Origin: an uncultured delta proteobacterium
GTDB lineage: Bacteria > Desulfobacterota > Syntrophia > Syntrophales > UBA8958
Direction: 5' to 3'
DNA length: 64,000 nt
Assembly: GCA_903885795.1 (NCBI GenBank)
Contig: CAISJV010000001.1
Location: forward strand, 1-64,000
Position 1 is the first letter of the stretch. Each line of letters opens with the position of its first letter. Made by a program: the position numbers and the translations under genes. Below are positions 25,812 to 29,198 of this stretch, piece by piece. The notes beneath the pieces were generated by a model. The model did no database searches. It had not been told where the DNA came from and saw only the letters and a list, made by a program, of their open reading frames with translations.

Positions 25812-27065
25812 ATGGCTTCCCAGATCCGACAAGTCGAAAAAAAGCAGCTCCAATTGTTTGAAAAGCTTATCAGATCGGAGCAGGAAAAATCCGTTATCCT
25901 TGATTCAATGACCGAACTCGTTTTATATCTGGACACGGATTTGCGCGTTATCTGGGCGAACAAGGCCATGCATGAAGCCTTCAAGTTAACGACCGGTCAA
26001 CTGAACAAGAAACACTGCTATCAAGCCCTCCACAATAGAAACAAGGTATGCAGTGTCTGTCCGGCCGAAAAAACCCTTAAAACCGGTGAACCCCACGAAG
26101 TAGTCGATTTTTTGTCGTACAAGAAGAACTGGGTGCTCCGTAGTTACCCCGTCCGCAATGAAAAGGGATCTCTAACCGGGATTGTAGAAATCGTAACCGA
26201 CATAACGGAGCGCAGAAAGGCTGAAGAAGGGTTGAGACAGTCTGAGCAGCAGTATCGTGAGCTCTTCGAAAATGCCAACGATATCATTTTTATTCTTGAT
26301 TTCGACGGCAAGATCCTGTCCGGCAACGCCGCCGCCGCAAAAACTTACGGCTACGAACCGGAGCAACTCAAAGGTTTGAACATAGCTGACCTCCTTCATC
26401 GGGATGATCTTTCTGTGGTCCGTGACCTCCTTCAAAAAAAGGTTGACGATGCCGAAGTACAGACGCCTCAGGCATTCCGGACATTTACAAAAGATGGCGA
26501 TACGGTATGGCTTGAAGTCAACACCAGGATTATGAAGGAAAACGGCAGAAACGTATCAATTCACGGTATTGCGCGCAACATCACGGAACGGAAAAGGATG
26601 GAAGAGGACCTGAAAAAGAGAGAAAGGGAACTTTCCGATAATTCAAGAAATCTTGAAGATGCAAACACCGCCCTTAAGGTCCTCCTCAAACGTAGAGAGG
26701 AGGATAAGACGGAACTGGAAGAAAAAGTGCTGTGCAACATGAGGGAGTTAATCCTGCCGTATATCGATAATCTGAAGCTGTCTTCCATCGACAGCCACCA
26801 ATTGAATCAATTGACGATCATCGAGGGTCACATCAATGAGATCATTTCCCCGTTTTTGCGCACCCTATTCTCTAAATACCCCAATCTAACGCCCATGGAA
26901 ATCAAGATCGTAAATTTTATAAAAGAAGGACGAACAACAAAGGAAATCGCCGAACTGCTTCATATATCGCCTAGAACGATCGAGGTTCACCGGGACAACA
27001 TCAGAAAAAAAATTGGCTTGAGAAGCAGGAAGGTTAATCTCCGGTCCTACCTGCTCTCTATATAG
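25812..27065 (+). CDS. PAS-PAS-LuxR transcriptional regulator
   Basis: 417 aa. A short coiled start is followed by a first PAS domain (about 25-135). This has a cysteine cluster HCYQALHNRNKVCSVCP, as in many redox- or small-molecule-sensing PAS domains of anaerobes. A second PAS domain (about 145-255, YRELFENANDIIFILDFDGK) ends in ITERKRMEEDL. After a helical linker comes a LuxR/FixJ-type helix-turn-helix (LTPMEIKIVNFIKEGRTTKEIAELLHISPRTIEVHR). There is no kinase domain, so this is a one-component regulator. It lies just before a palindromic site and the redox/acyl-CoA gene block, which it probably controls. Confidence 0.9.
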   Translation: MASQIRQVEKKQLQLFEKLIRSEQEKSVILDSMTELVLYLDTDLRVIWANKAMHEAFKLTTGQLNKKHCYQALHNRNKVCSVCPAEKTLKTGEPHEVVDFLSYKKNWVLRSYPVRNEKGSLTGIVEIVTDITERRKAEEGLRQSEQQYRELFENANDIIFILDFDGKILSGNAAAAKTYGYEPEQLKGLNIADLLHRDDLSVVRDLLQKKVDDAEVQTPQAFRTFTKDGDTVWLEVNTRIMKENGRNVSIHGIARNITERKRMEEDLKKRERELSDNSRNLEDANTALKVLLKRREEDKTELEEKVLCNMRELILPYIDNLKLSSIDSHQLNQLTIIEGHINEIISPFLRTLFSKYPNLTPMEIKIVNFIKEGRTTKEIAELLHISPRTIEVHRDNIRKKIGLRSRKVNLRSYLLSI

Positions 27066-27848: not shown

Positions 27849-27863
27849 AAGGGGGACATAAGC

Positions 27864-29198
27864 ATGAGTCAAAAGATGGTCGTCATCGGCGGCGGGGCGG
27901 CAGGCCCTTCCACGGCTGCGGAGGCCAAAAGGAGAGACAGGTCCCTCGATGTTACCATGATCGAGGGAGGAGACTTTGTGTCCTACGCCGCCTGACCGAT
28001 GCCCTATTACATCGGTGATGTAATCAATGACTACAAAAAACTGGTAATCCGGACGCCGGAAGATTTCCAGAAGAACGGCATCAACGTAAAGATCAGGACC
28101 CGCGTCGAAGATATCGATCCAGAAAAAGGTCTGGTCCGCCTATCCGATGATTCAAGTCTCCCCTTCGATATTCTGGTTATGGCTACCGGCGCCGACGCTG
28201 TCCGTTTGGACATCCCGGGGGCCGATTTGGAAGGGGTCTTTGTACTTAGAAACCTGATGGACGCCCTTCACCTTAAAACCTACCTGAACGAGAAAGAGTG
28301 CGGCAAAGCAGTTATTATCGGTGGTGGATACATCGGAATGGAGATGTGCGAAGCCATGAAAAACCTGGGTATCCAGACGACGGTCCTCGATGTCCTGCCT
28401 CGGCCGGTTGTCCGCTGGGATGGCGAATTTGCCAAGATGGTCGTGGATGAGCTGGGGAAAAACAATGTGCCCTTTCTGCCGGAAACAAGGCCCCTCGGCA
28501 TTGAAAAGGGAACCAAGAGCCGCCTCGTCCTGAAGACGGACAAAGGTGATCTGGATGCCGACATAATTTTGATGGGAGTGGGCACCCGTCGCAACGTGGC
28601 CCTGGCTAAGTCCGCAGGAATCGAGATGGGTGAAAGCGGCGCCATCAAAGTTGATTTCCGGCAGCAGACATCCCGGGAGGGGATCTATGCCGTCGGTGAC
28701 TGCTGCGAGGTCTTTCACAAGGTTGCCGGTCGTTGGGTCTATTATCCCCTGGGGGACATCGCCAACAAACAGGGGCGCGTCGCCGGCCAGAATATCGGGG
28801 GGCGCCCGACGGAATTTCCCGGCATCGTGGGCGCCCAGTCCTTCAAGGTCTTCAATCTTGAAGTAGGGGCCACGGGACTTACGGAGGAGGAAGCGTCAGC
28901 GTATGGATTTCAACCCGTTAGCGCCATGATCTGGGGACTTCCCATTGGCCGGCCCATGGCGAAAGGCGAAAAGCTGGGGGTTAAACTGGTTGCCGACAAG
29001 ACCACGGGAAAGCTCCTGGGTGGCCAGTGTATCGGCGAAAAGGGGGCTATCCAGCGGATCGTCGGCCTGTCCGTTGCCCTGTGGTCCGGCTTGCCCATCG
29101 AAGAGGTCGGCTATCTGGACCTTCCCTACGCCCCACCTTTCGGAGGCGCCTGGGATGCCATTCATGTGGCGGCACAGGAACTTATGAAAAAAATGTAG
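27864..29198 (+). CDS. Selenocysteine-containing CoA-disulfide-reductase-like flavoenzyme
   Basis: 444 aa when the in-frame TGA at 27993-27995 is read as selenocysteine (Sec44). The start ATG at 27864 gives the FAD-binding motif MVVIGGGAAGPSTA. The Sec falls in SYAA-U-PMPYYIGD, exactly where CoA disulfide reductases and Npsr/Nox enzymes have their single catalytic cysteine (SCGLPYYIG type). The second Rossmann motif VIIGGGYIGMEMCEA binds NAD(P)H and the C-terminal dimer domain is complete. Likely reaction: NAD(P)H-dependent reduction of CoA disulfide, persulfide or a related thiol. Reading from 27999 would lose the whole FAD motif, so that is not the real start. Confidence 0.9.
27993..28024 (+). 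promoter_or_regulatory. Selenocysteine UGA and SECIS-like hairpin
   Basis: TGA at 27993-27995. Downstream, ATTACATC (28006-28013) and GATGTAAT (28017-28024) form a perfect 8-bp stem with a GGT loop whose first G is the 19th base after the TGA. Bacterial SECIS hairpins have a G at the start of a small loop about 16-37 bases after the UGA, as in fdhF (loop GGUCU). A competing stem, CCGATG with CATCGG, starts directly after the TGA. Confidence 0.88.

Follow-up and report, generated by a model that had tools for sequence, protein, structure and literature searches.

A predicted selenocysteine-containing flavoprotein of Syntrophales: a variant of the predicted CoA-disulfide-reductase-like selenoenzyme family

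Introduction

A selenocysteine (Sec)-containing family resembling CoA-disulfide reductase (CoADR) has already been predicted in print. It is listed as a high-confidence predicted family under the name 'FAD-dependent oxidoreductase (CoA-disulfide reductase)', with TIGR03385, the motif UGxP and WP_011365774.1 (PMC13188914, Table 1). The accessible part of that paper cites a 2004 survey for the family, and it was entered as COG0446 elsewhere (PMC9312934). In addition, one selenoprotein called 'NADH oxidase' has been reported in Geobacter metallireducens (PMC1794560), and this is probably the same family. The accessible part of the same source gives 19 selenoproteins for Syntrophus aciditrophicus, with 'NADH oxidase' not among them. 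The family is not among the new families in the accessible part of the deep-Sep paper (PMC12013277).

The bSECIS model, as given in the accessible part of PMC13188914, has a loop of 3-9 nt, a stem of 4-16 bp, G at the first two loop positions and a spacing of 16-37 nt. Its folding-energy limit is −7.5 kcal/mol. In the CoADR of P. horikoshii, His367 was placed in the substrate channel, above the catalytic Cys48 (PMC6026696, accessible part).

Here, we describe a related gene in a 64,000-nucleotide stretch of Syntrophales DNA, called the window throughout. A first-pass annotation had read its in-frame TGA as Sec at the catalytic position of a CoADR-like enzyme. We compared the locus with its homologues and with the systems above.

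Results

Reading frame and residue 44

The features of the locus are collected in Table 1. The frame 27864-29198 contained a single internal stop, the TGA at 27993-27995, within SYAA-U-PMPYYIG. Plain ORF calling gave a shortened gene of 399 aa starting at ATG 27999, as the first-pass annotation had anticipated. The read-through product had 444 residues with Pyr_redox_2 and Pyr_redox_dim domains (Pfam). It regained the FAD-binding N-terminus, and the 399-residue form contained neither this part nor the catalytic residue. Residue 44 aligned with the Cys of solved chains, which agreed with the earlier placement of Sec at the position of the catalytic Cys in the CoADR/Npsr family. For codons 1-43, dN was 0.010-0.099 and dS was 0.22-2.48 in six comparisons; in a seventh, dS was saturated and undefined. 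Because dN was far below dS there, these codons appeared to be translated together with the rest of the gene.

Table 1. Features of the locus in the window. Neighbour counts refer to the 18 group-A loci defined in the text, several of whose stretches are cut by contig ends.
Feature	Position	Strand	Remarks
PAS-PAS-LuxR-type regulator	25812..27065	+	Pfam PAS and GerE; same-strand neighbour in 12/18 group-A loci
C_GCAxxG_C_C family redox protein, 179 aa	27309..27848	+	PF09719 75.5 bits (cut-off 27), TIGR01909 55.3 (cut-off 47.4)
GGGGG run, likely ribosome-binding site	27851..27855	+	8 bases before ATG 27864; suggested by sequence inspection
NAD(P)H/FAD disulfide-reductase-like gene, predicted to contain Sec	27864..29198	+	444 codons including UGA, then TAG stop
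UGA codon, predicted to be read as Sec, residue 44	27993..27995	+	catalytic Cys position of CoADR relatives
SECIS-like hairpin, 8-bp stem ATTACATC/GATGTAAT, loop GGT	28006..28024	+	conservation, RNAalifold consensus
Small protein, 108 aa	29217..29543	+	downstream of Sec gene; in 13/18 group-A loci
4-hydroxybutyryl-CoA dehydratase / vinylacetyl-CoA delta-isomerase-like flavoprotein, 483 aa	29565..31016	+	in 12/18 group-A loci

Sec and Cys forms among homologues

Public genome contigs were scanned for loci, family and order searches added others, and the loci used are a subset of all matches listed. Matches not covering residue 44 were excluded, and genes sharing the same 91 bases from codon 44 onward entered the count as one. 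Among the matches listed, this gave 133 distinct homologous genes, in which codon 44 was TGA in 96, TGT in 22 and TGC in 15 (Cys in 37). No residue other than Cys or Sec was found at position 44 in these genes, as expected from the first-pass annotation. A catalytic site that varies only between Sec and Cys is a classic mark of a selenoprotein.

We divided the loci by identity to the window protein. Group A (at least 59%, except L055, which was placed in group B by its position near lgt) comprised 18 loci including the window, with 16 TGA and 2 Cys genes. Group B comprised 94 loci, 68 with TGA and 26 with Cys. Group C comprised 21 loci at 34-41% identity, including 12 TGA genes with the motif USIP (11) or UAIP (1). 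These 12 genes (L161-L170, L043, L044) made up another Sec CoADR-like group at a greater distance, in which the motif extended to USIPYY apart from the one UAIP. A search of 395 genomes sampled from the phylum gave, at its best loci, 17 further TGA genes; five matches at 39-42% identity with no internal stop (G178, G180, G203, G238, G267) stood outside the codon count. We also observed a group D in other families of the phylum (L199-L212), whose 14 TGA genes had an identity of about 41-45%. Its motifs were UETP, UDLP or UEL[P/A], and its hairpin was the same as that of the window, with paired base changes. In a tally of 101 TGA genes, the motif after Sec was U-P-M-P in 64/101, U-P-T-P in 16/101 and, in a further group, U-E-T-P in 10/101. 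No UG motif occurred in this tally.

For groups A and B, a quick tree was computed after removal of the alignment columns surrounding the site, and parsimony on it required 10 Sec/Cys state changes; many of its forks had weak support, and a long-branch warning applied. In this tree, L068 of group A was located at the base of a large B set. Cys forms were present also in selA-bearing genomes, such as G083 and G031. In the Cys genes L184 and L154, the stretch after codon 44 was still SECIS-like, consistent with a recent Sec-to-Cys change.

The hairpin downstream of the UGA

The 8-bp stem with a GGT loop, described in the first-pass annotation, was present and conserved. The loop was separated from the TGA by 18 bases and began at base 19 after the UGA, which agreed with the distance stated in that annotation. 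In groups A and B, all 8 pairs of ATTACATC-GGN-GATGTAAT were formed in 84/84 TGA genes, and the stem letters were the same in 81/84. In the case of the Cys genes, the stem letters of the window occurred in 0/28 and all 8 pairs in 3/28. The hairpin was therefore beyond chance. Columns with a conserved amino acid were ranked by synonymous codon entropy. In the 84 TGA genes, stem codons 48, 49, 50, 52 and 53 took ranks 1-5 of 177 for the lowest entropy, and codon 51, whose third base lies in the loop, took rank 82. In the 28 Cys genes, residues 48, 49, 50 and 52 ranked 18, 57, 32 and 35 of 183, and residue 53 was too little conserved to rank.

With the 17 further genes, all 8 pairs were formed in 100/101 TGA genes, the exception being L212 with C-A at pair 8. 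Double-sided changes were found in 11 cells. Nine of these were at pair 2, and pairs 3 and 5 had one each. The 101 hairpins are related by shared ancestry and hence non-independent, and the nine cells at pair 2 may represent few events. The RNAalifold consensus of the 101 genes was exactly the hairpin at 28006-28024. For group C, the RNAalifold consensus was another hairpin, at −10.7 kcal/mol. A search for the TGA with the hairpin, allowing some variation, matched 87/155 genomes of the order, at one place per genome except for two in G014, and the window copy was the only match in its own genome. The backward control of this search gave 0 matches in the 155 genomes.

The RNA-folding check gave a mixed result. 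The conserved hairpin was there, but in the window its minimal form was weak, at −5.2 kcal/mol over 19 nt and −5.7 over 31 nt. The mean of the 101 genes was −7.6 kcal/mol, with a range of −16.2 to −3.2 (28-nt pieces). A competing CCGATG/CATCGG hairpin was stronger in the window (−9.9 kcal/mol). We rejected it as the SECIS: its six pairs were all formed in only 42/101 TGA genes, and its loop starts with C. Since the competitor paired fully in 42/101 genes against 100/101, 28006-28024 was taken as the conserved hairpin. The sequence comparison supported a bacterial SECIS-like hairpin at this site.

Sec machinery in the genomes

The first-pass annotation had pointed to selA, selB, selC and selD as a check on its reading. 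All four were found in the genome of the window: selA with 603 bits, selB with 382 bits, selC as a tRNA-Sec with 75.6 bits and anticodon TCA, and selD with 392 bits. selD is itself a selenoprotein gene, with an in-frame TGA in IVHGSG-U-ACKIG (G000:C35:3662-4591, L023).

selA was present in 137/155 genomes of the order. Two of the 18 genomes without it had a completeness of at least 90%, and both carried the Cys form. G002 (97% complete) had neither selA nor selB, and it was the only one of five genomes checked from which selB was absent. G039 (9% contamination) had selB. The TGA-bearing genomes without selA in the assembly (G005, G024, G076, G079, G097 and G099) were all 68-88% complete. G040 and G147 were also without selA; each had a homologue match outside the codon-44 count.

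Fold and enzyme class

The AF2 model (33 aligned sequences) gave pLDDT 94.6 and pTM 0.90, with the first 44 residues confident, and we regard the CoADR fold as a confident model. The best VIA-align match was the NADH-dependent CoADR 6ruz, with Z 50.8 and an rmsd of 1.8 over 437. Z was 50.1 for 4fx9, 49.4 for the persulfide reductase 6pfz and 41.5 for 8a56. The residue under Sec44 was the CoADR-type Cys in the aligned solved chains, and this position was invariant in set A1. Because homology aligns Sec44 with this Cys, Sec would lie beside the flavin. The Sec protein had a GDCCE motif (residues 280-281, window 28701-28706) where FAD binds for the second time in the chain, the second FAD-binding site. 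Its first Cys was kept in 112/112 and its second in 97/112 group A and B proteins. The motif might resolve a Se-S bond.

The two best NCBIfam models were CoA-disulfide reductases, and both scored below cut-off (TIGR03385, 352.5 bits vs 578.8; PRK09564, 367 vs 458). No rhodanese domain was matched in the 444-residue protein by Pfam. At the channel position, the window had IGRPMAKG (P364-M365), compared to RPHYYPG in aligned chains such as 4fx9. The pair was Pro in 18/18 group-A genes, followed by Met in 17 and Ile in 1, and in group B it was mostly Ser/Ala followed by Met/Leu. The channel Tyr-Tyr was kept in 12/12 group C Sec genes. By alignment numbering, His367 of P. horikoshii is the His of HYYPG, and the alignment suggests that the channel Tyr of this segment corresponds to Tyr361 of S. 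aureus. The C-terminal Tyr of YAPPF (Y422) was present in 18/18 A and 94/94 B genes and would correspond to S. aureus Tyr419. According to PDB titles, S. aureus Y361F and Y419F mutants exist.

The earlier assignment to the CoADR/Npsr family was only partly borne out. The CoADR fold and the match at the Cys position stood, but the TIGR03385 score was below cut-off, the rhodanese domain was absent, and Pro-Met replaced the channel Tyr-Tyr. We did not file the protein as CoADR or Npsr, as these defining features failed. Since the substrate channel differs, the protein is described as working like a CoADR-class reductase, without being called a CoADR. The missed cut-off and the missing Tyr pair weakened the substrate reading.

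Gene neighbourhood

The C_GCAxxG gene ended 15 bases before the Sec gene. The neighbour named in the first-pass annotation passed both family cut-offs and was upstream in 18/18 group-A loci. Six Cys of its product were the same in all 14 distinct full-length orthologues compared; the alignment had 15 rows, two of them from one gene. The 108-aa protein downstream had no Pfam or NCBIfam match. The dehydratase-like protein matched 1u8v with 360.8 bits and 6vjr with 321.2 bits. Its Cys-x3-Cys, its His and the Cys of CKVG were aligned to the 1u8v chain, and we take these to be the cluster ligands. The PAS-PAS-LuxR-type regulator possibly controls the operon. Methylmalonyl-CoA mutase was considered as a fixed partner and not kept: apart from the window, it was seen in three of the group-A stretches retrieved, and two of these had it on the other strand, although many stretches were too short to reveal it.

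Group B showed another neighbourhood, with lgt upstream in 70/94 loci and a thioredoxin-reductase gene in 54. One lgt example scored 254.3 over 118.9 with NCBIfam, and one thioredoxin-reductase example scored 370.2 over 343.45. In group-B loci such as L105 and L120, the Sec/Cys paralogue was close behind lgt, and the thioredoxin-reductase gene was often one further upstream. No close relative of the C_GCAxxG neighbour was seen in group B, where one weak match occurred (L143, 25% identity, opposite strand). The order in L068 was lgt, C_GCAxxG and Sec gene; here the partner gene of group A occurs inside the neighbourhood of group B.

Discussion

The codon, the SECIS, the Sec machinery and the Sec/Cys exchange were established here by comparison of sequences. 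On this basis, we regard Sec at residue 44 as virtually assured, and Sec insertion at 27993 as close to certain. A real stop at this codon would leave a truncated gene with a 399-residue product from ATG 27999, or a decaying gene, and the plain ORF scan does give that start. However, codons 1-43 were under purifying selection, the same TGA occurred in 96/133 genes among the matches listed with Cys as the sole alternative, and the short form would have neither the catalytic residue nor the N-terminal part that binds FAD. Truncation and pseudogene formation were rejected because of the kept TGA and a dN far below dS, and a real stop is highly improbable. The UGA could also be read as another residue (Trp or Cys) in a variant code. 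What favours this is the in-frame TGA itself, and its probability is close to nil. TGA was the commonest stop in the window, where it terminated 19 of 45 long ORFs; it is therefore an ordinary stop elsewhere in the window, and code reassignment was rejected. In addition, the homologues showed Cys and never Trp, the genome had the full Sec machinery, and the hairpin was frozen only where the codon was TGA.

In our preferred reading, which is very likely, the gene encodes a FAD enzyme of the single-Cys pyridine-nucleotide-disulfide class, with Sec44 decoded by SelB at the hairpin and replacing the catalytic Cys. UGA 44 would be decoded as Sec by SelB at 28006-28024. NADH, the presumed donor, would reduce FAD, and FADH2 would in turn convert Sec44 into its selenolate form next to the flavin. 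The selenolate would attack an S-S or S-SH bond to form a Se-S intermediate, which the flavin would reduce again. The presumed substrate would be a low-molecular-weight or protein disulfide or persulfide, with CoA disulfide as just one candidate, and the neighbouring six-Cys C_GCAxxG protein is a candidate partner. NADH-dependent disulfide or persulfide reduction through Sec is probable. By analogy, the protein may be a homodimer, and the selenol at residue 44 might make a faster disulfide or persulfide reductase, as the first-pass annotation had proposed.

Three narrower readings of the substrate were weighed. A true Sec-containing CoADR would serve the surrounding acyl-CoA metabolism by holding the CoA pool in the reduced state. 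The nearest structures are CoADRs, a gene for a CoA-ester enzyme lies downstream in 12/18 group-A loci, and methylmalonyl-CoA mutase genes (Pfam) follow in the window. However, TIGR03385 and PRK09564 both fell short of their cut-offs, the channel Tyr-Tyr is Pro-Met in group A (one Pro-Ile), and 70/94 group-B genes lie near lgt instead. This reading is unlikely, and CoA disulfide is an improbable substrate to the same degree. A Sec-containing persulfide or polysulfide reductase, acting on sulfane sulfur like Npsr, is doubtful but conceivable. The persulfide reductases of P. horikoshii and A. fulgidus were among the top structural matches, and the P. horikoshii chain is equally short, but the protein is without the rhodanese domain, which is present in the enzymes of A. 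fulgidus and E. faecalis according to the accessible sources. It is likewise doubtful but conceivable that the enzyme serves as the NADH-dependent reductase of the C_GCAxxG protein in a dedicated Sec redox relay. The two genes stayed together in 18/18 group-A loci while other neighbours varied, the partner has six invariant Cys, and L068 has the pair inside a group-B lgt neighbourhood. However, adjacency is not interaction, and group B is without a close relative of the partner apart from the one weak match in L143. Because of this absence, the reductase class does not need the C_GCAxxG partner. A wider version, in which a Sec NADH:protein oxidoreductase feeds the C_GCAxxG protein as a selenium relay for the oxygen-sensitive flavin/iron-sulfur CoA-ester chemistry of the dehydratase-like neighbour in syntrophic bacteria, is rather unlikely.

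Overall, the locus is a well-supported variant, at the sequence level, of a predicted selenoenzyme family. The kind is known. As far as we searched, we found no earlier report of the UPxP subfamily, its frozen SECIS or its two gene neighbourhoods; the literature searches covered selenoproteins and enzyme names in the accessible text outside supplements and found no UPxP CoADR-like selenoprotein. The motif may be missing from the catalogue because the window hairpin misses the bSECIS energy limit. If the reading is true, the gene with TGA and hairpin in 87/155 genomes of the order is likely mis-called as truncated, without its catalytic residue. Repeated Sec/Cys exchange, with a hairpin frozen only in the Sec forms, provides a natural test set for Sec versus Cys in a flavin disulfide reductase. 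The family also suits tests of SelB requirements when the SECIS is weak and its loop has 3 nt.

The enzyme shares with the catalogued family (WP_011365774.1; TIGR03385/COG0446) Sec in a CoADR-like FAD enzyme. However, the motif is UGxP there and U-P-M-P or U-P-T-P here, a distinction drawn from the motif printed in the accessible source. Compared to the bSECIS model in the accessible part of PMC13188914, the 3-nt loop GGU, the 8-bp stem, the loop G's and the 18-nt spacing are the same, but the window hairpin fails the limit of −7.5 kcal/mol and its sequence is near-invariant across the order. The CoADRs of S. aureus (1yqz) and P. horikoshii (4fx9) and 6ruz share the full-length modelled fold (Z 45.8-50.8), the catalytic Cys aligned with Sec44, and the C-terminal YAPPF Tyr, which was found in 112/112 A and B genes. 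In contrast, the window protein is predicted to have Sec for Cys, group A has no channel Tyr-Tyr, group B mostly has Ser/Ala-Met/Leu at this place, and the window protein scored below the curated cut-offs. With Npsr, CoADR-RHD and CoAPR (6pfz, 3nta, 3icr, 8a56) it shares the reductase core, and it differs in being without their C-terminal rhodanese domain.
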